Shown in pieces: positions 43,065 through 56,796 of a DNA stretch of 64,000 nt. Position 1 is the stretch's first letter. The number at the start of each line of letters is the position of its first letter. The DNA comes from Streptomyces sp. 840.1 (lineage in GTDB: Bacteria; Actinomycetota; Actinomycetes; Streptomycetales; Streptomycetaceae): NCBI RefSeq assembly GCF_003751445.1, contig NZ_RJUU01000003.1, positions 1,302,001-1,366,000 on the forward strand, written 5' to 3'. The translations under genes were made by a program, and so were the position numbers. A model generated the notes under the pieces. That model saw only the letters and a program-made list of their open reading frames with translations, ran no database searches and was not told the DNA's origin.

Positions 43065-44279
43065 ATGCCATTTTCCGTATACGCGCTCGGGCTCGCCGTC
43101 TTCGCCCAGGGCACCTCCGAGTTCATGCTGTCCGGCCTGCTCTCGGGCATCTCCGCCGACCTGCACGTCTCCATCCCCGCCGCAGGGCTGCTGACCTCGG
43201 CGTTCGCCCTCGGACTCGTTATCGGCTCGCCGCTGATGGCGCTGCTGGGACGCAACTGGCCCCGGCGGCGTGCCCTGTTGTTCTTCCTCTGCGTCTTCGC
43301 GGCCGTCCATGTCATCGGCGCGGTCACCTCCAGCTACGGCCTGCTGCTCGCGACGCGCGTCGTCGGCGCGCTGGCGAACGCCGGCTTCTGGGCGGTCGCC
43401 CTGGTGACCGCGGTCGCCCTGGCCGGGCCCGGGGCGCGGGCCCGCGCCACCTCCGTGGTGGTCGGGGGCGTCACCGTCGCCTGCGTGGCGGGGGTACCCG
43501 CCGGGGCGTTGCTGGGCGGGCAGTGGGGGTGGCGGGCGGCGTTCTGGGCCGTGGCCCTCGTGTCGCTGCCGGCCATCGCCGTGATCGCGGCGGCGATTCC
43601 GGCGGGGCGGCCGCCGTCCGCCCTGCCGAGCGCCCGCTCCGAACTGCGCAGCCTGGCGGGGCGCGGGCTGCGGCTCACGCTGCTGACGAGCGCCCTGGTC
43701 CAGGGTGCGACCTTCTGCGCGTTCTCGTATCTGGAACCGCTCGCCACCCACGTCACCGGGTTCGGCTCCGCATGGGTGCCGGTACTGCTCGCCCTGTTCG
43801 GGACCGGCTCGTTCATCGGGGTCACCGTCTGCGGCCGGGTCATCGACTCCCGGCCGGCCGCGCTGACCGCCGCCGGGCTGGTGTCGCTCACCCTGGGCTG
43901 GGTCCTGCTCGCGTGCACGGCGGGGAGCCCTGTCGCGGTGACCGCGCTCGTTACGGTCCAGGGGATGCTGGCGTTCGGCACCGGCACCGCGCTGATCTCG
44001 CACGTGTTCCGGCTGGCGGACGGGGCGCCGAGTCTGGCGGGCTCGTTCGCCACCGCGGCCTTCAACGTGGGCGGCGCGCTCGGGCCCTGGCTCGGCGGGC
44101 TCGCGATCGGTGCGGGGTACGGGTTCCGGGCACCGCTGTGGGTGAGTGCGCTGCTGATGCTCCTGGCGCTCGGTGCCGCCGTGGCCGCGCATGCCTGCCG
44201 CCCGGCACCGTCCTCGTCACCGGCACTAGGATCCGACGCACACGCACAGACGCACGAGCAGGGGAGTTCGAGTGGCTGA
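43065..44279 (+). CDS. Cmx/CmrA-like chloramphenicol-type MFS exporter
   Basis: A 404-residue drug:proton antiporter with about 12 helices. The start MPFSVYALGLAVFAQGTSEF followed by MLSGLLSGISADLHVSIPAA is characteristic of Streptomyces chloramphenicol exporters. Motif A-like GRNWPRRRAL and motif C-like GGQWGWRAAFWAVAL are present. ATG 43065 is chosen by family alignment; GGGG is about nine bases upstream. The glutaredoxin-like gene overlaps its end. Substrate specificity is inferred. Confidence 0.83.
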   Translation: MPFSVYALGLAVFAQGTSEFMLSGLLSGISADLHVSIPAAGLLTSAFALGLVIGSPLMALLGRNWPRRRALLFFLCVFAAVHVIGAVTSSYGLLLATRVVGALANAGFWAVALVTAVALAGPGARARATSVVVGGVTVACVAGVPAGALLGGQWGWRAAFWAVALVSLPAIAVIAAAIPAGRPPSALPSARSELRSLAGRGLRLTLLTSALVQGATFCAFSYLEPLATHVTGFGSAWVPVLLALFGTGSFIGVTVCGRVIDSRPAALTAAGLVSLTLGWVLLACTAGSPVAVTALVTVQGMLAFGTGTALISHVFRLADGAPSLAGSFATAAFNVGGALGPWLGGLAIGAGYGFRAPLWVSALLMLLALGAAVAAHACRPAPSSSPALGSDAHAQTHEQGSSSG

Positions 44280-44538
44280 GGACCGTGCCGGGGTTGTCGT
44301 CTACTGGCGCCCCGGCTGCCCGTACTGCATGAAGCTTCGCCTGCGGCTGCGGTTCACGAAGCTGGAGTACACCGAGGTCAACATCTGGCGCGACCCCGAC
44401 GCCGCCGCGTTCGTCCGCTCGGTGGCGGACGGGAACGAGACCGTGCCGACGGTGACCGTGGGCGGGAAGGCCATGGTCAACCCGTCGAAGCGCCAGGTGA
44501 TGGCGGCTGCGGCTCGGGCGCCCGGGTCGGGCGCCTGA
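44272..44538 (+). CDS. glutaredoxin-like protein (mycoredoxin type)
   Basis: An 88-residue thioredoxin-fold protein with the redox motif CPYC (C16, C19) in VYWRPGCPYCMKLRL and the cis-proline TVPTVTVGG. In mycothiol-producing actinobacteria such proteins reduce mycothiol-mixed disulfides. The GTG start at 44272 follows GGGGAG and overlaps the exporter stop codon by eight bases, so translation is coupled. Confidence 0.88.
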   Translation: MAEDRAGVVVYWRPGCPYCMKLRLRLRFTKLEYTEVNIWRDPDAAAFVRSVADGNETVPTVTVGGKAMVNPSKRQVMAAAARAPGSGA

Positions 44539-44551
44539 GCACGGGCCGTGC

Positions 44552-45331
44552 TCAGAGGTCGAGGTCGACGACGACCGGGGCGTGGTCGGACGCGCCCTTG
44601 CCCTTGCGCTCCTCGCGGTCCACATAGCTGTCCGTAACGGCGGCGGTGAAGGGGGCGTTACCGTAGACGAGGTCGATCCGCATGCCCTTGTTCTTCGGGA
44701 AGCGCAGCTCGCGGTAGTCCCAGAAGGTGTACGGGCGGTCGTACTTCAGGGGGCGCGGCACGACGTCGGAGAGGCCCTCCTCGCGCAGCGCCGCGAGGGC
44801 GGCCCGCTCGGCGGGCGTGACGTGGGTGGCGCCCTCGAAGAGGGCCGGGTCCCAGACGTCCTCGTCGGTCGGGGCGACGTTGTAGTCACCGATGACCGCG
44901 AACGGCAGCGCCCCCGCCGCGTCCGCCGCGACCGCCTTGCGCAGCGCCTCGAACCAGCGCAGCTTGTACGCGTAGTGCTCGTGCTCAACCTCGCGGCCGT
45001 TGGGGACGTACACCGACCACAGGCGCAGCGGGCCGCAGGTCGCGCTGATCGCGCGGGGCTCCTGAACGCCGTCGTACTCGGGGCCGTCCGGCAGCCCCGT
45101 CACGACGTCGGACAGGCCGGCCCGGGAGACGATCGCCACCCCGTTCCACCGGCCGGTGGCGTTGACCGCGGACTCATAGCCGAGCTCGCGGAGCGCCTCG
45201 GCGGGGAACTGCTCGGCGGTGCACTTGGTCTCCTGGATGCACAGCACGTCGGTGCCGGTGCTCTCCAGCCAGGCGAGCAGCCGGGGCAGGCGGGCGGTGA
45301 TCGAGTTGACGTTCCAGGTGGCGATGCGCAT
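44552..45331 (-). CDS. xthA: exodeoxyribonuclease III / AP endonuclease
   Basis: A 259-residue EEP-superfamily nuclease for base-excision repair: MRIATWNVNSITARLPRLLA, E34 in CIQETK, VIGDYNVAPTDEDVWDP and the terminal GASDHAPVVVDL. The ATG at 45331 has a TAGGTT hexamer about eight bases upstream and no ribosome-binding site, so the mRNA may be leaderless. The longer frame to 45373 is not needed. Confidence 0.92.
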   Translation of the reverse strand: MRIATWNVNSITARLPRLLAWLESTGTDVLCIQETKCTAEQFPAEALRELGYESAVNATGRWNGVAIVSRAGLSDVVTGLPDGPEYDGVQEPRAISATCGPLRLWSVYVPNGREVEHEHYAYKLRWFEALRKAVAADAAGALPFAVIGDYNVAPTDEDVWDPALFEGATHVTPAERAALAALREEGLSDVVPRPLKYDRPYTFWDYRELRFPKNKGMRIDLVYGNAPFTAAVTDSYVDREERKGKGASDHAPVVVDLDL

Positions 45332-45379
45332 GTACGTAAACCTAGCGGCTCCCACTGACAGCCGCCGGAGCACCGCCCC

Positions 45380-46042
45380 TCACACGCCCGTGGAGTCCCC
45401 CGGCGCCAGCCGTCCGTGGTCGGTTCCGCCGAGGCCGCCGATCTGGCTGTCGTAGATCGGGCGGGCGAGATCGGTGAGCAGCGCGTCGTGGATGTCGATG
45501 GCGCGGCGCGGCGCGACCTCGCGTACGTAGTCGATGACCTCGGAGATCTTGTTCCACGGTGCCATCACGGGGAGCATCAGCGTGTCGACCGGCCGGTCGG
45601 GCACCGTGAGCGCGTCACCGGGGTGGAAGAGCGAGCCGTCCACCAGGAAACCGATGTTGGTGATCCGCGGGATGTCCGGGTGGATCACGGCGTGGAGTTC
45701 GCCGTGCACCTGCACGTCGAACCCGGCAGCCGTGAACGTGTCGCCGTGGCCGACGGTGTGGACGCGCCCCGGGAACGCCGCGCCCAGCTGATCGGCCACG
45801 CTGCGCAGGGTCCAGATCTCGGCACCCGGACTGGCCTCCAGGCCGGCCCGCAGCCGCTCCTCGTTGAAGTGGTCGGGGTGCTCGTGCGTGACCAGGATCG
45901 CCTCGGCGCCGACCGCGGCGTCCTGCTCCGAGAAACCGCCCGGGTCGATGACGAGTGTGCGCCCGCCCTTCTCCAGCCGGATGCAGGAGTGGGATTTCTT
46001 GGTCAGCGTGAGCGCGAACGGCTCGGGGTTCACAGCGTTCAT
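45380..46042 (-). CDS. metallo-beta-lactamase-fold hydrolase
   Basis: About 220 residues. The metal motif is THEHPDH, with later ligands in FHPGDALTVPD and the terminal SQIGGLGGTDHGRL region. It resembles UlaG/YfnE-like MBL proteins. The ATG at 46042 starts MNAVNPEPF; another ATG nine bases earlier is possible. It lies head-to-tail with xthA and the PcaL-like gene. Substrate unknown. Confidence 0.87.
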   Translation of the reverse strand: MNAVNPEPFALTLTKKSHSCIRLEKGGRTLVIDPGGFSEQDAAVGAEAILVTHEHPDHFNEERLRAGLEASPGAEIWTLRSVADQLGAAFPGRVHTVGHGDTFTAAGFDVQVHGELHAVIHPDIPRITNIGFLVDGSLFHPGDALTVPDRPVDTLMLPVMAPWNKISEVIDYVREVAPRRAIDIHDALLTDLARPIYDSQIGGLGGTDHGRLAPGDSTGV

Positions 46043-46055
46043 GTGCCCCATCCTG

Positions 46056-47357
46056 CTATGCGGGCGGTGTCGTTTCGGCCTGAATCACCGACTGCGCGAT
46101 CGTGAAGGCCGCGCTCGCCGCCGGAATGCCGCAGTAGACGGCCGTCTGCAGCAGGACCTCCCGGATCTCGGCCGGGGTGAGGCCGTTGCGCAGGGCCGCG
46201 CTGACGTGTGCGGCCAGGCTCTCCAGGTGACCGGAGGCGACCAGCGCGGTGAGCGTGACGGTACTGCGCATGCGCCGGTCCAGCCCCTCCCTGCTCCACA
46301 CCTCGCCCCAGGCGTAGCGGGTGACGAGCTCCTGGAAGTCGTCGGTGAAGCCGTCGGAGGCGGCCGTGACGCCGTCCACGTGGGCGTCCCCCAGCACCTC
46401 GCGGCGGATCCGCATGCCCTGCGGGTACGGATCGGTGCGCCCCTGCGAGGGGTCCGCGGGCCGCGCGGTGGCCGCGGTGATCTCCGCGACGGGCAGTACG
46501 GGGGCGGAGAGCCGCGGGGCGTGGGTGAGCGCCGGAATGGCCGCCTGGGTGTCCTGCCAGGCGGCGGAGAAGTGGGTGAGCAGCAGGTCGGTGACGGCTC
46601 CGGGCTGCTCGACCGGGGCCAGGTGCGAGGCGCCGGGGACCAGGGCCAGCCGGGCGTCGGGTATGCCGGCGACCAGGGTGCGGGCGTCGCCGGGGCCGGT
46701 GACCTTGTCCTCGGCCCCGACCAGGACGAGTGTGGGGACGCCGATCCGGCCCAGTGCCCCACGGATGTCGAAGGCGGCGAGGGCCTCGCAGGCCGCTATG
46801 TAGCAGCCGGGGTCGGTGGTCCGGACCATCTGGACGGCCCACTCCACGATGGCGGGCTGCGCGGCGGCGAACCCTGAGGTGAACCAGCGCTCGGGGGCGG
46901 CGCGGGCCATCGGCTCCAGCCCGTTGGTGCGGACGATGACCCCGCGCTGCCGGAACTCGTCGGCGCTGCCGAATCTGGCCGATGAGGCAACCAGGGCCAG
47001 CGAAGCGACCCGGTTCGGGTGCCGCAGCGCCAGTTCGGCACCGATCGCGCCGCCGATGGAGCAGCCCGCGTATCCGAAGCGCTGGACGCCCACGCCGTCG
47101 AGGGTCGCGAGCAGCCGGTCGGCGAGTTCGCCCACGGCGGTGGCCGGGCGGGCGGGTGCGCCGCCGTGGCCCGGGAGGTCGAAGCGGAAGACTCTCCAGT
47201 GCTGGGTGAGCTCGGCTATCTGCCGGTCCCACATGTGCCAGGTGGTGCCCAGGGAAGGGCCGATCACCAGGACCGGAGCGTCTTCTGGCCCGTCAAAGCG
47301 GTATTGGAGGGTGTTCGGTAGTGTCTCGCTCACCCGCCCGACCCTCTCATCTGTCAC
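46056..47357 (-). CDS. pcaL: fused 3-oxoadipate enol-lactonase / 4-carboxymuconolactone decarboxylase
   Basis: A 433-residue two-domain protein. The N-terminal alpha/beta-hydrolase (residues 20-270; nucleophile Ser in GYAGCSIGGAIG, His in PGASHLAPVE) corresponds to PcaD. The C-terminal about 120 residues (GFTDDFQELVTRYAWGEVWS, VASGHLESLAAHVSAALRNG) match the AhpD-like decarboxylase PcaC. The fusion is known from Streptomyces and Rhodococcus and converts 4-carboxymuconolactone to 3-oxoadipate. No other pca genes are adjacent, so the pathway is split or the enzyme has another role. Confidence 0.9.
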   Translation of the reverse strand: MTDERVGRVSETLPNTLQYRFDGPEDAPVLVIGPSLGTTWHMWDRQIAELTQHWRVFRFDLPGHGGAPARPATAVGELADRLLATLDGVGVQRFGYAGCSIGGAIGAELALRHPNRVASLALVASSARFGSADEFRQRGVIVRTNGLEPMARAAPERWFTSGFAAAQPAIVEWAVQMVRTTDPGCYIAACEALAAFDIRGALGRIGVPTLVLVGAEDKVTGPGDARTLVAGIPDARLALVPGASHLAPVEQPGAVTDLLLTHFSAAWQDTQAAIPALTHAPRLSAPVLPVAEITAATARPADPSQGRTDPYPQGMRIRREVLGDAHVDGVTAASDGFTDDFQELVTRYAWGEVWSREGLDRRMRSTVTLTALVASGHLESLAAHVSAALRNGLTPAEIREVLLQTAVYCGIPAASAAFTIAQSVIQAETTPPA

Positions 47358-47668
47358 GAGATGTCACACCGCCGGGGTGGACCCGGCCGAGGTGGACCGG
47401 CCGAGCTTGCTGCGCTCCGGCACCGGCAGGTCTGCTCGCAGTGGTCCGAGCGCGAGACGCTCGAGGCACGGGGCGTGGTTCACCGCCCAGGCGAGTACGA
47501 CTCAGCGTCTCACCGGCCCGGTACGTTCCTGGCGGCCCCGGATCGCACCCCCACCGGGGGTCTCCGGGGCCGAGCCCGGCAGCGTCCCTGCCGGGCGCCA
47601 GGATTCCGCACCGCGCAAATAACTTGGTTCCTGTCACCGAATCGACGAGAACTCATGGAAGGCCGGGT
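47358..47668. other. intergenic, no gene seen
   Basis: Upstream region of the PcaL-like gene and end of the DUF6131 gene. Contains a GC hairpin CCCCC-a-CCGGGGG-like segment near 47550. Confidence 0.4.
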
Positions 47669-47824
47669 CTAGAAGTAATGCTTGCGCCCGCCGACCTTGC
47701 GTCCGGTGGAGCCGAGGATCCACAGTACGGCGCCCACGACGACGAGAATTCCACCGACGGTAGTCAGCAGCGAAACGCCGACGAGCAGGCCGACTATGAG
47801 CAGAATCGCACCGAGAAGAATCAT
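47669..47824 (-). CDS. DUF6131-type small membrane protein
   Basis: A 51-residue product MILLGAILLIVGLLVGVSLL, TTVGGILVVVGAVLWILGST, GRKVGGRKHYF. It has two hydrophobic helices and a basic tail, and the same length as the paralogue at 17740-17895. It is upstream and divergent from the PP2C signalling cassette. Function unknown. Confidence 0.85.
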   Translation of the reverse strand: MILLGAILLIVGLLVGVSLLTTVGGILVVVGAVLWILGSTGRKVGGRKHYF

Positions 47825-48196
47825 GTCATTTCCCATCATCAGTTTCTTGTGCCGCGTACGAGAATCCGCTGTGCAGCGGGCTCAGCGCAATCGGCCGGTT
47901 CATTCTGGCTGTCTTCGCATCGAAAGTAACTGGATTACTGTCTCGCCCTCCGTCTGCCCTGCGCCTGCGGGCTCACACATCCCTTTCCGATCCAAAGCCG
48001 AGTCGGGGTGAATCACGGTGCCGGGAAGCGGGCCCCGTCGCGGGGCCGACCGCCGGCCTGCCCCCCGTTTCGCAGCCCCCCGGCTACCCCGTCCCAGGGC
48101 GGTTGCAAACTTCGTAGATCGTGCGGGAGTGTTTCCGTACAGCAAACTTTCTCCGAGTTGATGAGGTGAGGGATTCGCGCAGCGGGTCCTCTGTGT
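47825..48196. other. divergent regulatory region
   Basis: About 370 bases between the DUF6131 and PP2C genes; no gene. AT-richer patches near 47920-47945 and 48105-48170 are the likely promoters. Confidence 0.4.
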
Positions 48197-49849
48197 ATGG
48201 GTATTTCGACCCAAGGTGCAGTCGGCGTGGGCGGTCGGGCGAGCTCCCCGTGGAGTGCCGTCCCCTGGCCGGTGTTGATCGTGGACGCCGGGGGCGCCCT
48301 GGTGCTCGTGAACGACACAGCGGGGGCCCTCCTGCCCCGGGCCCGGCCGGGTGCCGTAATGGCGGATGCCGTTCCCGCCTGGTTGTGGCGTGCGCACGAG
48401 AGAGTCAGTGCACGGTCCCAGGAGTCCACCGAACGCGAGGTGTTCTCGGGCGCCGTGAGCGGGCGGACCTTCGAGGCGCATCCGACCGTTCACGCTGATG
48501 ACACCGTGGCGTGGTGGCTGATCGATGACACGGACTGCCGCCTGGCGCGTGAAGCGCTGGCGATGGAGCGCGAGCGCACCGCGTTTCTGACGCATTCGTC
48601 GAACCTGTTGCTCTCGTCCCTCAACCTGGACCGGTGCATGGACGTCACCGCGCAGATGGCTGCCGAACACCTCGCCGACGCGGCCCTGGTCATCGTCCCC
48701 TCCCGGGTCCACCACCTGCCGATGGTGACCTGTCTGCGCGGTGGTAACTCCTCGATGTCGCACCCTCGGGTCGATCCGGCTGAAGTGCCGGGCCTGGCAG
48801 AGGCGTTGCAGGGGTTCCCGCCGGTGCCGTCCCGCTGGCTCGACCCTGCCGTCGCCCCTGCGTGGCTGGTGCCCGAGGGGTTCGGGCAGGTCGGTTCGAT
48901 CGTGATCACGCCGCTGCCGGGGCACGGGGTGCCGGCGGGAGCGCTCGTGCTGCTGCGGCATTCGGAGAACCCGGCGTTCACCGAACGCGAGGAGGTGTTC
49001 GCCCGGCTGTTCGCCGCGCGGGCGGGGGCCGCCATGTCGGCCGCCCGCCTGTACGCGGAGCAGTCGGCGATCACGGAAGTCCTGATGCGTGAACTGCTCC
49101 CGCCCGCCCTCCAACAAGTGGCCGGGGTCGATTACGCCGGTGGGTACCGGCCTTCCGAGGACCACGAGCGGATCGGCGGCGACTTCTACGACGTACACCC
49201 TTCGGTGACCGAGGGTGAGGCTTCGCTGGTGGTGCTGGGGGACGTGTGCGGCAAGGGGCTGGAAGCCGCGGTGCTGACGGGCAAGATCCGCAACACCCTG
49301 CACGCCCTGCTGCCCATGGCCGGTGACCACCAGCGGATGCTCAGTCTGCTCAACACATCGCTCCTGAACTCCCACCACACCCGCTTCGCGACGCTGGTCC
49401 TGGCCTCGGCGATCCGTGAGGGGCACGAGGTGCGGCTGACGCTGACCAGTGCCGGGCACCTCGCACCGCTGATCCTGCGGACCGACGGCGAGGTGGAGGA
49501 AGCGGAGACGCTGGGCACTCTGGTCGGGGCGATCCCCGACGCCCGCTCCAGCAGCACGGCGCTCACGCTGGCGCCCGGGGAGACCTGCGTCCTCTACACG
49601 GACGGGATCACCGAGGCCCGCGGCGGGCCCCTCGGCGAGACACTGTTCGGTGAGGAGCGTCTGCGCCGCTCGCTGTCCGAGTGCACGGGCATGCCGGCGG
49701 AGGGGATCGTGGAGCGGATCCAGATGCTCGCCTCGGAGTGGGTCGGCAAGGGCCGCCACGACGACATGGCCATCGTGGTGATCTCCGCTCCCCGCTCCCA
49801 CCACCTGAGTGCGGTGAACGGTCACACTCGGGGCAGGTACACCGCATGA
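48197..49849 (+). CDS. PP2C/SpoIIE-family phosphatase with PAS-like and GAF-like sensor domains
   Basis: A 550-residue protein. A PAS-like N-terminus (residues 15-115; WSAVPWPVLIVDAGGALVLV) and a GAF-like domain (about 130-300) precede the SpoIIE catalytic domain (about 320-535). The PP2C metal acids are present: IGGDFYDV, LVVLGDVCGKGLEAAV, VLYTDGITEARGG, GRHDDMAIVV. It should dephosphorylate a STAS anti-sigma antagonist, and one is encoded two genes downstream. It is coupled by ATGA overlap to the cobalamin-binding gene. Confidence 0.92.
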   Translation: MGISTQGAVGVGGRASSPWSAVPWPVLIVDAGGALVLVNDTAGALLPRARPGAVMADAVPAWLWRAHERVSARSQESTEREVFSGAVSGRTFEAHPTVHADDTVAWWLIDDTDCRLAREALAMERERTAFLTHSSNLLLSSLNLDRCMDVTAQMAAEHLADAALVIVPSRVHHLPMVTCLRGGNSSMSHPRVDPAEVPGLAEALQGFPPVPSRWLDPAVAPAWLVPEGFGQVGSIVITPLPGHGVPAGALVLLRHSENPAFTEREEVFARLFAARAGAAMSAARLYAEQSAITEVLMRELLPPALQQVAGVDYAGGYRPSEDHERIGGDFYDVHPSVTEGEASLVVLGDVCGKGLEAAVLTGKIRNTLHALLPMAGDHQRMLSLLNTSLLNSHHTRFATLVLASAIREGHEVRLTLTSAGHLAPLILRTDGEVEEAETLGTLVGAIPDARSSSTALTLAPGETCVLYTDGITEARGGPLGETLFGEERLRRSLSECTGMPAEGIVERIQMLASEWVGKGRHDDMAIVVISAPRSHHLSAVNGHTRGRYTA

Positions 49850-50940
49850 GCCCTAACGCCTTCCACTCCGCACAGAACGGCCGAACACCCCGACGGTGGG
49901 TGGATGAGTTGTGGAAGGCCGTCACGGACGGGGACGAGCACGCCGCGACCGAGGTGGTGACGAGCGCCCTGGAAGAGGGCCTCGACGCGGAGAGCGTACT
50001 GCTCGACGTCATCGCCCGGGTGCAGGGCAGGGTGGGCGAGGAATGGGCCGCGAACCGCCTCAGCGTCGCCTCTGAACACACCGCCACCGCGATCAACGAC
50101 CGCGCCGTGGCCGCACTGGCCCTGCACCCCGCCTCCCGCACCACCGCCGATCGGGGAAGGATCACGGTGGCCTGCGTCGACGGCGAGTGGCACGCCCTGC
50201 CGGCCCGCATTCTGGCCGAGGTACTGAAACTGAGGGGCTGGCACGTGGACTACCTCGGAGCACAGGTGCCCACTCCGCACCTGATCGCGCATCTGCACCG
50301 CACCAACTGCGACGCGGTCGCGCTCTCCAGCTCGATCGCCACCCGGCTGCCCACCGCTCACGCCGCGATCACCGCCTGCCAGGCCGTCGGCGTACCCGTG
50401 CTCGTCGGCGGTGCCGCCTTCGGGGCCGACGGCCGCTACGCCCGCCTGCTGGGCGCCGATGACTGGGCACCCGATGCCCGCGCCGCCGCCGAACGTCTCG
50501 CCCTCGGCCCGCTGCCCCGTCCACAGCCGCACCACCAGCCGATCGACGACCTGCCCCACCTGGCCGACCAGGAATTCACCCTGGTCGCCCGCAACAGCAC
50601 GACCCTGGTCCGTGCGGCCTTCACCGGACTGGAGTCCCGCTTCCCCGCGATGCGCGCCTACAGCGACCAGCAGCGTGAACACACCGCGGCGGACCTCGTC
50701 CACATCGTGGAGTTCCTCGGTATCGCCCTCTACACCGGCGACGACGACCTCTTCGCGGACTTCCTCGCCTGGACCAGCGGCATCCTCGCCGCTCGCAACG
50801 TTCCGCCGCACAGCCTGCCGCCGGCCCTGCAGATCCTCGCCGACGAGTTGAGGGACTTCCCCCGCGCCACCCGGATCCTCCGGCTCGGCATCGAACGCCT
50901 CACCTCCGCCGCCCTCGTCCCTGCCGGGAACACCGCATGA
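49846..50940 (+). CDS. cobalamin-binding sensor protein with CarH-type W-x9-EH motif
   Basis: A 364-residue protein. Residues 18-95 form a B12-binding-2 helical cap with W67, E77 and H78 (EEWAANRLSVASEHTA), exactly the W-x9-EH pattern of CarH photoreceptors. Residues 105-220 are the Rossmann-like B12-binding domain, with candidate lower ligand H116 (DGEWHALPARIL) and VLVGGAAFG. The C-terminal about 140 residues are helical and unclassified. There is no MerR DNA-binding domain, so output is likely by protein contact. Its start overlaps the phosphatase stop and its end overlaps the STAS start, forming a tight operon. Confidence 0.88.
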   Translation: MSPNAFHSAQNGRTPRRWVDELWKAVTDGDEHAATEVVTSALEEGLDAESVLLDVIARVQGRVGEEWAANRLSVASEHTATAINDRAVAALALHPASRTTADRGRITVACVDGEWHALPARILAEVLKLRGWHVDYLGAQVPTPHLIAHLHRTNCDAVALSSSIATRLPTAHAAITACQAVGVPVLVGGAAFGADGRYARLLGADDWAPDARAAAERLALGPLPRPQPHHQPIDDLPHLADQEFTLVARNSTTLVRAAFTGLESRFPAMRAYSDQQREHTAADLVHIVEFLGIALYTGDDDLFADFLAWTSGILAARNVPPHSLPPALQILADELRDFPRATRILRLGIERLTSAALVPAGNTA

Positions 50941-51356
50941 CTACGACGCCCCCCAGCCACCTGCGCCTGACGACCGTGGACTCCGAGACCACTGTCCGCA
51001 TCGAAATCCAGGGCGACCTCGACTTCGACAACGCCGACCAGCTCCTGGCCACGGCCAACGGCAAGCTCGCCGACAACCCCCACCTGCTCGACCTCCACCT
51101 CCACTTCGCGGGACTCGGCACCACCGATTCCATGGGCCTCTCGATCCTGTTGATGATCCGCCGCCGCGCCACCGAGGCCGGCGTCCGCCTCCACCTGGAC
51201 GAGCGCCCTTCGGCCCTGGACCGCATGCTGAGGATCACCGGCACGCTCGCCCACCTCACGGCCCTGCCCACCGGCGGTGCCGACGACTCCGCCGGCGCCG
51301 AAGAACAGCACCTCAGACGCGGACCGGGCGACGCGGGGCCGGACCACAGCGCCTGA
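50937..51356 (+). CDS. STAS-domain anti-anti-sigma factor
   Basis: A 139-residue STAS protein: VRIEIQGDLDFDNADQLLAT, and the phosphorylation-site segment GLGTTDSMGLSILLMIRRRA with S65 as candidate. It is the expected substrate of the SpoIIE-type phosphatase and of an anti-sigma kinase encoded elsewhere. ATGA overlap with the cobalamin-sensor gene suggests fixed stoichiometry. Confidence 0.9.
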   Translation: MTTTPPSHLRLTTVDSETTVRIEIQGDLDFDNADQLLATANGKLADNPHLLDLHLHFAGLGTTDSMGLSILLMIRRRATEAGVRLHLDERPSALDRMLRITGTLAHLTALPTGGADDSAGAEEQHLRRGPGDAGPDHSA

Positions 51357-51408
51357 TGCCCGCGCCCCGGGGCATGGACAGGTCACCAGCTGAGCCGATG
51401 GGAATCAC

Positions 51409-51885
51409 GTGCCGCAAGAACCCGCCGCGCAAGCACTCACCCGGGACGCCGCCCGCGCCGTCTCCCGTGTCATCGAACTCCTCGACATCCCGCTGGAACG
51501 CGTTCGCGGAACGACACATCCGGCTCCCCTGTCGACCTCACAACTTCACCTGCTCTGTCTCGTCGACCGCGACGACGGAATCCGCATGCGCGCCCTCGGT
51601 CAGCTCCTCGACACGGCGCCCTCCTCGGTCAGCCGCATGTGCGACCGCCTGCAGACCATGGGACTCCTCGAACGACGCCCATGCCCGCACAGCCGCCGCG
51701 AAGTGGTCCTGCGCCTGACCGGAGCGGGAAAGTCCCACCTCGAAGCGGTCCGCACCCAACGCGAAACCGCGCTGCTCCACGTCATCGGGGCCCTGCGGAG
51801 CACGGAACGCCGGGCACTGACCAAAGGACTGACGGCCTTGCACACGGCTCTCTGCGCAGCCGCCGACACGAAGGCCGAGGGCTGA
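51409..51885 (+). CDS. MarR-family transcriptional regulator
   Basis: A 158-residue winged-helix protein: TSQLHLLCLVDRDDGIRMRA, LGQLLDTAPSSVSRMCDRLQ, TMGLLERRPCPHSRREVVLR. The start is GTG 51409. It follows the STAS gene by about 50 bases on the same strand and may be the transcriptional output or autoregulator of the cassette. Confidence 0.87.
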   Translation: MPQEPAAQALTRDAARAVSRVIELLDIPLERVRGTTHPAPLSTSQLHLLCLVDRDDGIRMRALGQLLDTAPSSVSRMCDRLQTMGLLERRPCPHSRREVVLRLTGAGKSHLEAVRTQRETALLHVIGALRSTERRALTKGLTALHTALCAAADTKAEG

Positions 51886-52234
51886 ACCCCGGCTGCTCCT
51901 GCCCGGACAGCGCGAACCGGGAATGGTGATTGCGCGCCAATACCGCCGCACACAAACAAATGGTTTCTATTATTCTCGTTCACCGCTGGTAGACCGCACA
52001 GCAGATTGTTCCGGACGCGCCCCGACGTGACTACGGCGCAGTGCGTACTGCACCGTCTCACTCTTCTCCCGTTCCTGGAGCTTCTCCCGTTCCTGGAGAA
52101 AAACCATGTGTGAGGGGAGCAGCACGGGGCACGCGATTTACACGGAACGCCGTCACTGCAATTCGGGTGACGCCGTACCGGCTCAACGGCCAATGCCCTT
52201 GAGTGAACCCGAGTCTCAATGAGGGAGCCGTTAT
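51886..52234. other. intergenic with tandem repeat
   Basis: No gene. AT-rich patch at about 51940-51985, then the 18-bp duplication and the promoter region of the PRC-barrel gene. Confidence 0.45.
52063..52098. repeat. perfect 18-bp tandem duplication
   Basis: CTTCTCCCGTTCCTGGAG occurs twice without spacer, upstream of the PRC-barrel gene. Confidence 0.85.
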
Positions 52235-52588
52235 ATGAGTGACAACATCTGGGGCTACCAGCCGACCACCGGCCACACCGCGGGCACCGACCTGATCGGT
52301 TACAAGGTCGAGGCGACCGACGGAAGCGTCGGCAAGGTCGACAAGCACTCGGACGACGTCAACTCCGCGTACCTCGTGGTCGATACCGGTGTCTGGATCT
52401 TCGGCAAGCACGTACTGCTGCCCGCCGGCACGGTACGCACCATCGACACGGCCGAGCGGAAGATCCTCGTCGACCTCACCAAGGACCAGATCAAGCACTC
52501 GCCCGAGTTCGACAAGGACAAGCATGTGGGAGACGCGGGATACCACGAGCAGGTCGGCGGCTACTACCAGAGCCACCGCCGCTCCTGA
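52235..52588 (+). CDS. PRC-barrel domain protein
   Basis: A 117-residue protein whose core (residues 18-85; DLIGYKVEATDGSVGKVDKH, AYLVVDTGVWIFGKHVLLPA) is a PRC barrel. The tail is charged and Tyr/His-rich (GDAGYHEQVGGYYQSHRRS). GGGAG precedes the ATG. Such proteins are often stress-induced in Streptomyces, which would fit its place behind the partner-switching cassette, but this is inference. Confidence 0.85.
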   Translation: MSDNIWGYQPTTGHTAGTDLIGYKVEATDGSVGKVDKHSDDVNSAYLVVDTGVWIFGKHVLLPAGTVRTIDTAERKILVDLTKDQIKHSPEFDKDKHVGDAGYHEQVGGYYQSHRRS

Positions 52589-52806
52589 GCGCACCGCACC
52601 ACGTCATGAGGCGGGGCCGGCCAGACTCGTTCTGCGCCGGCCCCGCTTCTGTTCCCGTGAAGGACCTATCGCCTCCTGCGGGCAGCTTCCGGTACGGAAC
52701 GCGGGAGGAGCGCCCGTGGGCGGAAGCGGACTGGAACGTCGGCTGATTGGTCTACGCCTTCTGGGGCACGAGGACGTTGGCAGCCCATACACCGAGAGGC
52801 ACTTCT

Positions 52807-53046
52807 GTGTTGATTGCGCACCCCATGATCCTGCGGAGTCTCGTCGGTCGGTACGAGAAGCTCCAGCTTCTGAACTCTCAGGAGCGCACGCCGCCGACGG
52901 ATCAGGAACTGCAGGACGTGTCCTACACGCTGTGCGTGACCACCGGCACGCGCACGGTGGAGGACGCGCTCGTGGCAGCGGAGCAACAGCTCGCCTCGCC
53001 GGCCGACGCGGAGGTCGCCTCCTCGGACGTACGGCTCACGGCCTGA
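52807..53046 (+). CDS. DUF5133-type protein
   Basis: A 79-residue protein: LIAHPMILRSLVGRYEKLQL, TPPTDQELQDVSYTLCVTTG, TRTVEDALVAAEQQL, typical of actinobacterial DUF5133. GTG 52807 is preceded by GAGAGG at good spacing; the longer frame from 52747 lacks a site. Function unknown. Confidence 0.8.
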   Translation: MLIAHPMILRSLVGRYEKLQLLNSQERTPPTDQELQDVSYTLCVTTGTRTVEDALVAAEQQLASPADAEVASSDVRLTA

Positions 53047-53464
53047 TGCCGGCAGGCATCGCAGTGCACCGGCTATGACCAGTTGGCCGAAGCACCTGGC
53101 AACGGCACCGCCGTGCCCCACTGCACGACGAAGCACGACGAAGCCTGCCCTGGTGCCGCCTTCACGTCCTCCTGGATCGCTCAGCAACGGCTGACGTCAC
53201 ACTCGTCGGCGGGACGAACGACGCGATCAGGCCGATCGCGTTGTTCGTCCCGCCGGCGTACACGTGGTGCGTGTCGGGGGCCATCGGCATCGTTCAGGTG
53301 CACCCCAAGCGGCACCACCGACACAGCGCCCCGTCATGCAACGCTGCGTGATTCGGGTTGGGGGTCTGGCCTGAGGTCGTGTCCTACATGGCAGTTCGTT
53401 GGTCCTACCAGCAAAAGGAGTGACTGCTGGTGGGGTGCGGCCGATGACGCTTTTCGTTTCCGAG
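53047..53464. other. intergenic with IS-end relic
   Basis: No gene. Contains the strong hairpin at 53208-53254 and, near 53373, GGTCGTGTCCTACATGG, which resembles an end of the defective IS5 at 55062-55676. Confidence 0.45.
53208..53254. terminator. 21-bp hairpin
   Basis: GGCGGGACGAACGACGCGATC-aggcc-GATCGCGTTGTTCGTCCCGCC, one mismatch in 21 pairs. Placed between the convergent DUF5133 and EamA genes; likely bidirectional terminator. Confidence 0.65.
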
Positions 53465-54361
53465 TTACGGGCGGTCGGTGCTGGTTGGCATCGGCGGAGC
53501 TGGGCGGCTTTCAGCACGCCAGGTCGCTGCGGCACCGGCTGACACGATCAGTCCCATGCCGACGAGTACCGGTGCGGAGAGACTCTCGGCGAGTGCGAGG
53601 GCGCCGATGAGTGCGCCCATCACTGGGTCGAGGGAGAACAACGTCGCGACCACTTTGGCCCCGGCCATCTTCACGGCCTGGAAATCCAGGGTGAAAGCGA
53701 GAGCCACCCCGACGACGCCGGAGACAACGACCAGGACCCGGTCGGATCCGTTGACGCTTGGGGCGGCGGGAAGGGAGAAGGGGAGGAGCAGGATCGCCGA
53801 TATGCAGACCGATACGGCCAGTCCCTCCAATCCGGAGGACGCCCTGCCCACGCGCTGAGCGAAGACGGTGTAGCAGGCAAGGGCCAGCGCGGAGAGCAGT
53901 CCGGAGGCGATTCCCGCCCACTCGTCCGTCCCGCCGGGTTCCGTTACCAGGACTACGCCCGCCAGGCCGACTGCCGGGAGGAGCGCTTCGCGCCAAGCGC
54001 GCGCCGAGGCGACCGCCACGACGAACGGACCGAGGAACAGCAGCGTCGCCGCCACGCCGAGTGGGAGGCGGCCCACCGTGCAGTAGTAGGCCACGTTCAT
54101 GACGGCCATCGCCGCGCCGTAGATGACCATGCCGGCCCAGTCCTGCCGCGTGTGGCCACGGACCCTCGGCCGCACCAGCACCATCAGGAAGAGGGCAGCG
54201 CAGAGCTGCCGCAGCCCGGCGACGGCGGGAGCACCCAGCCGGTCGAAGAGTGTCGAGGCGAGTGCTGCTGAGGCTTGCACACTCAGACAACTGACGAGGA
54301 CCAGGCCCGCGCCGATGAATGCTCGGATACGGGCAGGCCCCATGGTGGTCGGTTCGCTCAC
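53465..54361 (-). CDS. EamA-family (DMT) transporter
   Basis: A 298-residue membrane protein with about ten helices in two EamA repeats (AGLVLVSCLSVQASAALAST, LLSALALACYTVFAQRVGRA). It likely exports a metabolite or amino acid. GTG 54361 has GGAGG seven bases upstream. It is divergent from a TetR gene, with a palindrome between them, so TetR probably represses the exporter. Confidence 0.88.
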   Translation of the reverse strand: MSEPTTMGPARIRAFIGAGLVLVSCLSVQASAALASTLFDRLGAPAVAGLRQLCAALFLMVLVRPRVRGHTRQDWAGMVIYGAAMAVMNVAYYCTVGRLPLGVAATLLFLGPFVVAVASARAWREALLPAVGLAGVVLVTEPGGTDEWAGIASGLLSALALACYTVFAQRVGRASSGLEGLAVSVCISAILLLPFSLPAAPSVNGSDRVLVVVSGVVGVALAFTLDFQAVKMAGAKVVATLFSLDPVMGALIGALALAESLSAPVLVGMGLIVSAGAAATWRAESRPAPPMPTSTDRP

Positions 54362-54412
54362 GTGCGCACCTCCGGTAGAAGGCAGGAGGCGCTCAGTCTT
54401 CCCTTGCCTCAT

Positions 54413-54428
54413 TGAAACGATCGTTTCA
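54413..54428. promoter_or_regulatory. TetR operator TGAAACGATCGTTTCA
   Basis: Perfect 16-bp palindrome in the divergent EamA/TetR promoter. A second, shorter dyad TAACG-ct-CGTTA follows at 54432-54443. Confidence 0.65.
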
Positions 54429-54453
54429 CTGTAACGCTCGTTATGCTGGGCGC

Positions 54454-55062
54454 ATGGACCAGGACACCGCTGACACCGCTGAGGCCACGGCCAGACCGTC
54501 CGCCAGGGACCGATTGCTGGACGCAGCCGACGAGCTCTTCTCCCGGAACGGCATCGCCCGCACCAGCGTCGATCAGGTGCTGCACCAGGCCCACGTCGCC
54601 CCCGCCACGCTCTACGCGCACTTCGGGGGAAAGGACGGCCTGGTCGCAGCCGCGCTGCAACGGCGCCTGGACCGCTGGGAACAGGTATGGAAGGAAGCGG
54701 TAGACGCCGCAGCCGCACCCGCCGACAAGCTCCTGGCCCTGTTCGACGCTGTCTCCGCCTACCGGGACCGGTACACCCCGGGCCGCGGGTGCGCCTTCCT
54801 CGCGACCAGCATTGAGCTGCCTGACCTCGATCACCCCGCCCGCGCCGTGATCGAGGCGGAGTCCACGCTCCTTCTCACGCGGCTGAACCGGCTGGCGGAA
54901 ACTGTCACCCCCGAGAACCCCGCCGCCCTGGCAGGCAACGTGCTGCTCGTGTACGACGGAGCCATGGCCAACCTCCAACGCGGACGGACACCGGAGCCGC
55001 TCGGCCACGGCAAGGCGCTGGCGAGATGCCTGATCCAGAACGCGATCGAGACCGAACAGTGA
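54454..55062 (+). CDS. TetR-family transcriptional regulator
   Basis: A 202-residue protein with HTH ARDRLLDAADELFSRNGIAR, TSVDQVLHQAHVAPATLYAH, FGGKDGLV and a C-terminal ligand domain of the TetR_C_16-like kind. ATG 54454 is the first start inside the family alignment. It is divergent from the EamA transporter gene. Its stop codon coincides with the left end of the defective IS5, so the IS inserted exactly at the gene end. Confidence 0.87.
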   Translation: MDQDTADTAEATARPSARDRLLDAADELFSRNGIARTSVDQVLHQAHVAPATLYAHFGGKDGLVAAALQRRLDRWEQVWKEAVDAAAAPADKLLALFDAVSAYRDRYTPGRGCAFLATSIELPDLDHPARAVIEAESTLLLTRLNRLAETVTPENPAALAGNVLLVYDGAMANLQRGRTPEPLGHGKALARCLIQNAIETEQ

Positions 55063-55676
55063 GACCGCGCCCTACATGGCCAGTTGGCGGTTGGGCTGGT
55101 CATGGGAAGTGGACGGTGGGGATGGATCGTTGCGGACGGGCTGTGGGAGACAGCACGGCCGTTGCTGCCGCCGGCCCGAGTTCGTCCGCAGGGCGGTGGG
55201 CTCGCGAACATCGATGACGAGGCAGTCTTCGCGGCGATCATCTACGTGCTGGTCAGCGGGTGCGCCTGGCGGGCCTTACCGCCGTGCTTCGGTGCGTCGA
55301 AGCCCCACCGTGCACCGCCGGTTCGTCATCGAAGCCGATGCTGTCCCATTTCCACATGGGACACGAATCCCACGCGCGGGAATCGAAGCCCCGTCGCCTT
55401 CACTGCCGACACGGCGTATGACGTCCCTCGCCTGCGGCGGTGGCTCTGGGGCAAGCACATCGGAGTCCGCATCGCCCGCAAAGGCATTGACTCCAGCGAG
55501 CGGCTCGGCCGCCGCAGACGGGTGATCGAACGGACGATGTCGTGGCTGACCGGCTACCGCCGGCTCAACCACCGCTACGGAGCGGAAACCAGGCAACTAC
55601 CTGGCCTTTCTCGGACTCGCGGCCGCACTCTGCTGCTACAAACGATTCCACGAACTGACCATGCAGGACACGGTCT
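55062..55676 (+). mobile_element. defective IS5-family element
   Basis: Inverted ends AGACCGCGCCCTACATGG on the left and, in reverse complement, AGACCGTGTCCTGCATGG on the right. At 615 bp it is too short for a complete IS5; the middle has been deleted. Confidence 0.7.
55105..55676 (+). pseudogene. IS5-family transposase, internally deleted
   Basis: The N-terminus WIVADGLWETARPLLPPARV and AAIIYVLVSGCAWRALPPCF is followed, after a frame change and loss of the central catalytic region, by TADTAYDVPRLRRWLWGKHI and RRRRVIERTMSWLTGYRRLN. The last residues LAFLGLAAALCCYKRF are in a third frame. Confidence 0.8.
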
Positions 55677-55678
55677 AA

Positions 55679-56796
55679 GTGAGCGTTTGGTTCGCATATC
55701 AGGTGTTTGGCTGCGATTCTGAGCGGTCAAGCGAAGTCCCCTGAGCGGTGATTCGCCGGGGAAGTGGCTTATACGGCAATCCGTGGACCAGTAATGCACC
55801 GGGTTTCTGATGAGAGATCCCGTCTCATTCAGAAGCAACCTGGTTCATGCGGGTCTGCGCACTCGCGCCCTGGTGCCCCGGATGCCTCGCCGCACGCCCT
55901 GCCCAGGTCGGCTGCCGCCGCGTACCCAGGCATCATGCAGCCCTCACAGTCCTACCCCAGCGACCTGTCCGACGCCCGCTGGGAACTCATCCGCCCCACG
56001 CTGGAAGCCTGGCGCCAGGCCCGCGCCGGCATCCGCAAGCCCACCCACGACCTACGCACCCTGATGAACGCCATCCTCTACGTCGACCGCACCGGCATTC
56101 CCTGGCGCTACCTCCCCCACGACTTCCCACCCCACCAGACCGTCTACGGCTACTTCGCCCGCTGGGAAGCCGACGGCATCTTCGACCAGCTCACCAACAT
56201 CCTCCGCGGCAAGGTCCGCAAGGCCGAAGGCCGCGCGAGCCAGCCCAGCGCCTGCCTGATCGACAGCCAGAGCATCAAGACTTCCGCCACCGTCCCCCTG
56301 ACCAGCCAAGGTATCGACCCGGCCAAGAAGATCATCGGACGCAAACGGCACATCGTCACCGACACCCTCGGCCTCCTCCTGGCCGTCGCCGTCACCGCCG
56401 CGAGCGTCCACGACTCCGCGGCCGGCACCCAGCTCATGACCAAGGTCGCCGCACTCCACCCAACGATCAGCAAAGCCTGGGCCGACAACGGCTACAAGAC
56501 CAAAGCCGTCGAACACGCCGCCCACCTCGGCATCGACCTCGAGATCGTCCAACGCGACCCCACCACCAGAGGCTTCCACGTCCAGCCACGCCGATGGGTC
56601 ATCGAACGCACCCTCGGCTGGCTCATGCACCACCGCCGCCTCGCCCGCGACTACGAAACCCACCCCCACCGATCAGCAGCCATGATCCAGCTGGCCGCCA
56701 TCAACCTCATGACCCGCCGCCTCACCCACGAGACCACCCTCAACTGGCGCGACACCTAGACCAAATGAAACAGACATCGGAGAACGAAACGCTCAC
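55679..56796 (+). mobile_element. IS5-family element, tandem copy 1
   Basis: 1118 bp between inverted ends GTGAGCGTTTGGTTC and GAACGAAACGCTCAC (one mismatch). TAA precedes it (55676-55678) and follows it (56797-56799). Confidence 0.9.
55935..56759 (+). CDS. IS5-family transposase, copy 1
   Basis: A 274-residue DDE transposase: DUF4096 part YPSDLSDARWELIRPTLEAW, IPWRYLPHDFPPHQTVYGYF; catalytic residues in SACLIDSQSIKTSATVPLTS, AWADNGYKTKAVEHAA and RRWVIERTLGWLMHHRRLAR. ATG 55935 begins the family-typical N-terminus; an upstream in-frame ATG at 55764 would add 57 unrelated residues. Its protein sequence equals that of copy 2. Confidence 0.9.
   Translation: MQPSQSYPSDLSDARWELIRPTLEAWRQARAGIRKPTHDLRTLMNAILYVDRTGIPWRYLPHDFPPHQTVYGYFARWEADGIFDQLTNILRGKVRKAEGRASQPSACLIDSQSIKTSATVPLTSQGIDPAKKIIGRKRHIVTDTLGLLLAVAVTAASVHDSAAGTQLMTKVAALHPTISKAWADNGYKTKAVEHAAHLGIDLEIVQRDPTTRGFHVQPRRWVIERTLGWLMHHRRLARDYETHPHRSAAMIQLAAINLMTRRLTHETTLNWRDT

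Follow-up and report, generated by a model that had tools for sequence, protein, structure and literature searches.

Introduction

What does a protein with the signature residues of an adenosylcobalamin (AdoCbl) photoreceptor do between the genes of a PP2C phosphatase and a STAS protein? The question is raised by a locus of Streptomyces sp. 840.1 that lies in a stretch of 64,000 nucleotides (nt) of its 8.84-Mb genome (RefSeq assembly GCF_003751445.1, contig C3 or NZ_RJUU01000003.1, positions 1302001-1366000), hereafter called the window, whose first base is position 1 of the coordinates given below. A preliminary description had presented the middle gene as a CarH-like B12 sensor and the interval 48197-51885 as a sigma-factor partner-switching operon. 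The current study assigns the middle protein to the photocobilins, identifies a specific phosphatase as its partner, and indicates that the locus is probably a cassette feeding light input into partner switching, in which the signal would pass from the photocobilin via the PP2C phosphatase and the STAS protein to a SigB-type sigma factor.

A standalone photocobilin encoded in a phosphatase-STAS operon

Three genes on the plus strand are connected by four-base overlaps (ATGA) at both junctions, as described before. They encode an RsbU-type PP2C phosphatase of 550 amino acids (48197-49849; Pfam SpoIIE, 1e-40), the standalone photocobilin of 364 amino acids (49846-50940, start ATG at 49846; Pfam B12-binding, 7e-19, and B12-binding_2, 4e-15), and a STAS protein of the anti-sigma-factor-antagonist type with 139 amino acids (50937-51356; Pfam STAS_2, 4e-11, and STAS above its cut-off; NCBIfam ant_ant_sig below it). 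Pfam and NCBIfam agree with the gene types originally assigned, and the interval previously delimited covers the three genes and also takes in a fourth, the plus-strand gene of a MarR-family regulator (51409-51885), which is recognized by Pfam.

A phmmer search of PDB sequences with the middle protein returned the dark and light structures of SasPcob from Saccharothrix syringae (8J2W, 8e-78, and 8J2X, 1e-77), both covering residues 20-348, followed by 8J2Y (AbPcob) at 4e-42 and by CarH/LitR chains at 1.6e-8 or weaker. Its AlphaFold model, with a predicted local distance difference test score (pLDDT) of 85.4 and a predicted template modeling score (pTM) of 0.77 from 47 aligned sequences, also had 8J2W as the top structural match (E 4e-27; template modeling [TM] score of 0.91 by target length and 0.83 by query length; 43% identity over 342 alignment columns). 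The structural comparison with CarH, which had been proposed as a check, gave matches over only about 210 columns. By sequence comparison and modeled fold, the middle protein is a full-length photocobilin that is homologous end to end to SasPcob and shares its two-domain architecture, i.e., a four-helix bundle with a Rossmann B12 domain (about residues 15-220) and a C-terminal globin or bilin domain (about residues 237-356). The C terminus is indeed helical in the model, but because the latter matches 8J2W first and CarH over the shorter stretch only, these helices are the bilin-binding globin domain of a photocobilin. The CarH-like designation thus held insofar as the protein is of the AdoCbl photoreceptor type and lacks a MerR domain.

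Six key chromophore residues of SasPcob, namely, W61, E71, H72, and H108 for B12 and D270 and W296 for biliverdin, have been described together with the B12-side motifs and the biliverdin pocket of the family (Zhang et al. 2024, PMC10979010). In the phmmer alignment, in which the chain numbering is offset by 6, their equivalents in the window protein are W67, E77, H78, H116, D283, and W309, the first four at the positions noted earlier. W67 and E77-H78 (codons within 50044-50079) form the W-x9-EH motif of the predicted adenosyl pocket and dimer interface, H116 (50191-50193) is the predicted lower axial cobalt ligand within E114-W-H116 (motif E/DxH), and D283 (50692-50694) and W309 (50770-50772) are predicted biliverdin contacts, all on the plus strand. 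Among 121 aligned proteins, i.e., the window protein and those of 120 loci, W67, E77, and H78 are each conserved in 118 (three gaps), H116 in 119 (two gaps), D283 in 115 (two gaps, four replacements), and W309 in 115 (two gaps, Phe in four). All six are present throughout a second set composed of the window protein and its 119 closest database relatives by score (120/120). To judge from these alignments, the fit of W67, E77, H78, and H116 is beyond chance.

Binding of both AdoCbl and biliverdin by the window protein would be in line with these residues; its globin half contains no Cys in the translation. In AbDPcob (8J2Y), which shares the fold (32% identity, TM score 0.86), the photocobilin is joined to a diguanylate cyclase and controls this enzyme in cis (GGDEF), and the biliverdin Asp is replaced by His, to which the weak biliverdin binding of AbPcob has been ascribed (PMC10979010). 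Since the window protein retains Asp at this position (D283), it may bind biliverdin better, and because it is a photocobilin, red light may also act on it. A haem oxygenase match (PF01126) is present in the window's own genome, but the family occurs similarly in genomes with (106/122) and without (145/171) a photocobilin and is therefore uninformative with regard to bilin use.

CarH and LitR share with the window protein the B12 domain including the W, the EH, and the lower His. Membership in their family was rejected, as Pfam shows B12 domains alone, with no MerR domain, and the NCBIfam CarH hit reaches 55.5 bits at a cut-off of 400. Furthermore, W67 is followed by Ala, at a position where CarH carries the His that forms its bis-His state in the light. 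The proposal of a role different from that of the CarH/LitR repressors is supported. SasPcob is much closer, but the window protein probably represents a different subfamily, because three other Saccharothrix species carry genes that are 69 to 72% identical to the window's and 47 to 49% identical to that of SasPcob. The closest named relatives come from Streptomyces. The measurements of binding and photochemistry come from SasPcob.

A near-obligate phosphatase partner

The gene neighborhood was analyzed in three groups of loci: the top 80 among 358 relatives from the collection of named genomes, which are the closest relatives by construction; 20 loci taken at spaced ranks from the 133 matches that 293 genomes of the order contain; and 20 relatives that are mostly weak. 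The search profiles were derived from the window genes and from HATPase and sigma factor proteins of the same genome. A co-oriented PP2C gene (>200 bits) is located upstream of the photocobilin gene in 80/80, 20/20, and 18/20 loci, respectively (118/120 in total), and the two loci missing this call contain PP2C-like fragments of up to 61 and 132 bits. Among the loci with a hit, that of L195 is fragmented. A STAS gene follows downstream in 75/80, 17/20, and 5/20 loci (97/120 in total); these counts for the third group indicate that distant members often lack an adjoining STAS gene while the phosphatase stays. The MarR gene is present in 30/80, 4/20, and 0/20 loci.

The pairing was also determined reciprocally in the 293 genomes with residues 1-298 of the phosphatase, i.e., without the catalytic domain (E<=1e-15), and with the photocobilin (E<=1e-40). 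The photocobilin was found in 122 genomes and the phosphatase N terminus in 120, all of which harbor both, so that the N terminus never occurs alone (0 genomes). As many as 128 of the 133 photocobilins and 128 of the 134 phosphatase N termini have their counterpart within 3.5 kb; these counts are uncorrected for the kinship of the genomes. The window's genome has 33 SpoIIE-domain matches, hence the partner is this specific PAS-GAF-PP2C protein and not any PP2C phosphatase, and its gene is a near-obligate companion of the photocobilin gene. Distance correlations (Spearman 0.71 for photocobilin and PP2C, 0.69 for photocobilin and STAS; 76 sequences, i.e., the window and 75 loci) were set aside as evidence, because within the photocobilin the two halves reach a coefficient of only 0.55, and the effect of species kinship is still included.

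The AlphaFold model of the phosphatase (pLDDT 85.5) was read as a PAS domain (about residues 20-111), a helix (112-140), a GAF domain (144-262), a long helix (263-299), and the PP2C domain (305-531), an arrangement that is uncertain because the pTM is only 0.55. The PAS and GAF domains appear as such from the secondary structure of the model, while Pfam reports SpoIIE alone. The best PDB match is 3ke6, the RsbU-RsbW domains of Rv1364c, and the metal ligands Asp 329, 349, 469, 522, and 523 are conserved in 117 of 119 phosphatases, with gaps in the other two. In the STAS protein, the candidate phosphorylation site is Ser65 in TDSMG (codon 51129-51131, plus strand), a position occupied by Ser in 94 of 98 proteins (window and 97 loci), which we take to be equivalent to Ser58 of SpoIIAA.

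An RsbU-type PP2C phosphatase with N-terminal sensors and a STAS protein with a phosphorylatable Ser are also found in the RsbU/RsbP-RsbV-RsbW-SigB systems and in OsaC, BldG, and SCO7325 of Streptomyces coelicolor, but in the window a separate B12/bilin photoreceptor gene partners the phosphatase. As is proposed here, light reaches a SigB-type factor by partner switching in Bacillus subtilis, where, in contrast to a B12/bilin sensor paired with a phosphatase, the blue-light sensor YtvA is flavin-based and resides inside the stressosome. Control of a sensor-linker-PP2C dimer is documented for RsbU, and it has been proposed that N-terminal sensors including the GAF-PAS of OsaC work via a crossing helical linker and that the same sensors are swapped between PP2C and GGDEF enzymes (PMC12143880). 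This idea of sensor exchange would accommodate the photocobilin, which is part of a GGDEF fusion in one lineage and has a PP2C partner in the present locus.

Complete one-strand modules in relatives

Kinase and sigma factor genes share the cluster with the photocobilin in some relatives, in each case on one strand. The order is PP2C, photocobilin, STAS, STAS, HATPase, HATPase, sigma in L189; sigma, STAS, HATPase, PP2C, photocobilin, STAS, HATPase in L185; PP2C, photocobilin, STAS, HATPase, STAS, sigma in L075 (Streptomyces diastatochromogenes); and sigma, STAS, HATPase, PP2C, photocobilin, STAS in L215 (Actinokineospora bangkokensis). In L202, PP2C, photocobilin, and STAS are followed by a sigma factor some 650 bases further. 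All five sigma factors exceed the SigB/F/G cut-off (TIGR02980). The nearest relative of SasPcob among six genomes (L214, Actinosynnema pretiosum; 65% identity) has PP2C, photocobilin, STAS, and HATPase in this order, of which all but the photocobilin are confirmed by Pfam.

Two side observations concern these neighborhoods. One genome of the window's genus (G168) contains three photocobilin loci (L188, L189, and L190) with differing neighbors, one of them a full SigB-type module. In L036, L042, L061, and other Streptomyces loci, a divergent STAS-HATPase pair is located about 2.3 to 2.8 kb upstream of the photocobilin start and provides a candidate cognate kinase.

A conserved leader hairpin upstream of the phosphatase gene

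The upstream region comprises a probable promoter region with a degenerate palindrome (48101-48146) and a 5' leader (48163-48190) with a Shine-Dalgarno-like GAGG (48163-48166) and a predicted hairpin of 48170-48178 with 48182-48190, all on the plus strand. With up to 4 mismatches, the leader motif GAGGTGAGGGnTTCGCnCAGCGGnTCCTC was detected upstream of the phosphatase gene in the window and in 47/80 and 4/38 relatives, compared with 0/2380 mononucleotide shuffles. RNAalifold predicted a single 9-bp hairpin for 48 sequences (the window and 47 others; 47 distinct). Of its 423 cells, 99.5% are paired versus 96.4% in shuffles (0/500 as high), a figure inflated by the choice of sequences for their similarity to the leader consensus; slid structures pair 35 to 57%. 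Cells changed on both sides number 23, versus a shuffled mean of 2.8 (0/500), and two pairs are changed on both sides (8/500), while further pair types, one of five measures, were not above shuffles (401/500). The replacement of A-U by G-C seen in 20 sequences may reflect few events. G-U pairs are constant at several positions, which favors an RNA structure over a DNA palindrome. Single-sequence folding was unremarkable (z of -0.6 and -0.8), so the case for the hairpin rests on covariation.

No Rfam match was obtained at the gathering threshold in 44000-56000. Within the window's genome, the hairpin model scored 69 bits at its own site and 21 bits at the next one (150 of 7906 candidates scored). 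Among 76 sources, i.e., the window and loci outside the model, it had nine matches at E<=0.1, six of them strong or moderate in Streptomyces-order loci and the window and one in Kutzneria (L034), which confines the hairpin to part of the family. Its folding between GAGG and the ATG at 48197 would reduce the unpaired spacing to about nine bases, as is usual for a Shine-Dalgarno sequence.

The palindrome GTTGCCnnnnGGCAAC was found with up to 2 mismatches within 150 nt upstream of the phosphatase gene in 49/80 and 11/38 relatives and in 10/2380 mononucleotide shuffles. It is present in all 33 other scored loci with an operon MarR gene (33/33) and in 27/85 without one. The window copy, GTTTCCGTACAGCAAA (48131-48146, plus strand), has 3 mismatches and thus fails this cut-off; as it is degenerate, a MarR operator is only suggested, and autoregulation of the operon by the MarR protein via the palindrome is possible. 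A SigB-type promoter consensus was found upstream in 1 of 19 sequences, the window's not being among them.

Directly downstream of the operon, genes for a PRC-barrel protein (52235-52588) and a DUF5133 protein (52747-53046) possibly belong to the regulated set. Two transposase open reading frames of the IS4/5 type are located at 55084-56759; a DDE domain match appears to be missing from the first.

Proposed mechanism and alternative explanations

On the basis of the family assignment by sequence and fold, the conserved chromophore, catalytic, and phosphorylation sites, the near-obligate pairing, and the clustered kinase and sigma factor genes of some relatives, the following course of events is proposed. 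In the dark, the photocobilin would form a head-to-tail dimer loaded with AdoCbl and, if available, with biliverdin. The Co-C bond would be broken by green light via B12 or by red light via biliverdin, the adenosyl group would leave, and the dimer would open as in SasPcob, for which adenosine release and a shift of the E71/H72 helix have been reported (PMC10979010). The changed photocobilin would then bind or release the neighboring PAS-GAF-PP2C protein in trans and reset the helix between the sensor domains and the catalytic dimer. An altered dephosphorylation of Ser65 would decide whether the STAS protein captures an RsbW-type kinase encoded elsewhere and, by this capture, frees a SigB-type sigma factor. 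Cofactor binding, the contact between photocobilin and phosphatase, the sign of the response to light, and the choice of kinase and sigma factor in this strain are inferred. Regulation in trans has a precedent, since the light states of AbPcob and of holo SasPcob stimulate a diguanylate cyclase (PMC10979010). We lean towards an activation of the phosphatase by light rather than the opposite.

Several observations weigh against this proposal. Neither an RsbW-type HATPase kinase nor a Sigma70_r3 sigma factor match lies within the window, so that the earlier designation as a sigma-factor operon holds for some relatives and not for the locus itself; as candidates inside this operon, both had to be rejected. 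Among the relatives, an HATPase kinase is encoded within 4 kb of only 29/80, 11/20, and 5/20 photocobilins of the three groups and a sigma factor in the examined stretch around only 4/80, 0/20, and 4/20, and in the mostly weak group 15 of 20 photocobilins have no STAS gene beside them. Sixteen photocobilin genomes lack a haem oxygenase match, and bilin use gains no support from this family. Finally, in AbDPcob a sensor of the same fold has a diguanylate cyclase as its output, and with AdoCbl alone SasPcob stimulated the cyclase in its dark state and seemed to inhibit it in its light state, opposite in sign to the holo form (PMC10979010), which makes the direction of the light effect unpredictable. 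The window's genome would have to supply the kinase and the sigma factor from other loci. Outside the window it has 67 HATPase (HATPase_c_2) matches, of which 54 exceed the family cut-off, and 11 Sigma70_r3 matches; on the same contig, the nearest listed HATPase and sigma matches are located about 0.2 Mb and 0.76 Mb, respectively, from the window edge. Trans-acting antagonists and many kinases in S. coelicolor provide precedents for unlinked partners (PMC8346170).

A stressosome-like arrangement, in which the target of the photocobilin is the STAS protein or a kinase and the PP2C serves only as a reset enzyme under its own PAS-GAF control, would account for the sensors that the phosphatase itself appears to carry and for the STAS gene adjoining the photocobilin gene, and it finds a parallel in the non-haem globin domain of RsbR from the SigB pathway, an outgroup of the photoglobins (PMC10151467). 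We regard it as unlikely, given that no STAS gene was detected next to 23 of 120 photocobilins, compared with two for PP2C, and that the phosphatase N terminus tracks the photocobilin genome by genome. A sensor of the supply of AdoCbl or bilin, in which cofactor loading makes the dimer and sets the phosphatase activity while light is incidental in soil, is a still less probable explanation. Streptomyces are soil dwellers, AdoCbl binding alone changes the enzyme activity of AbDPcob compared with the apo form, and we know of no light test of this strain. However, the W and EH of the adenosyl pocket, which undergo a light-induced rearrangement in SasPcob, and the biliverdin-adjacent D and W are nearly invariant, and a pure loading sensor would have no need of a bilin pocket. 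A corrinoid methyl carrier of the MtbC/MetH kind, to which the NCBIfam similarity to MtgC, MtbC, and MetH and a few database names might point, can practically be dismissed in view of scores far below each family cut-off, the end-to-end photocobilin match, and the conserved phosphatase and STAS neighbors. The name "methanogenic corrinoid protein MtbC1", which JGI gives to 3 of 120 listed relatives and which is similar in one NCBI entry, is probably a misannotation.

Significance

The photocobilins and a suggested connection to STAS and PP2C proteins are already published: for SasPcob, possible interactions with STAS, SpoIIE, and PP2C proteins have been suggested on the basis of STRING, and the function of standalone photocobilins was considered "less clear" (Zhang et al. 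2024, PMC10979010). New here are the quantified PP2C pairing, the one-strand modules, and the leader hairpin, none of which is described in the available parts of the literature consulted, the 2022 photoglobin paper aside. In a wider generalization, to which we give slightly better than even chances, standalone photocobilins of actinomycetes mainly drive one dedicated PAS-GAF-PP2C phosphatase, the two genes forming an obligate, broad-spectrum light switch (B12 plus bilin) for SigB-type factors. Some strains would have the whole path in one cluster, and in some Streptomyces the translation of the phosphatase would be a second control point, with the conserved hairpin bringing a distant Shine-Dalgarno sequence near.

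The near-exclusive pairing with the phosphatase and the one-strand clusters reaching to a sigma factor make photocobilin function directly testable, with the partners named. Because about four in ten of the genomes sampled from the order (122/293) carry a photocobilin, a B12/bilin light input to sigma factor control may be widespread. The bacteria concerned are usually thought to live in the dark, and their photocobilin-phosphatase pairs are candidate green- and red-light parts for optogenetics. If the proposal is true, it suggests that light would switch a stress-type gene program in this soil bacterium.

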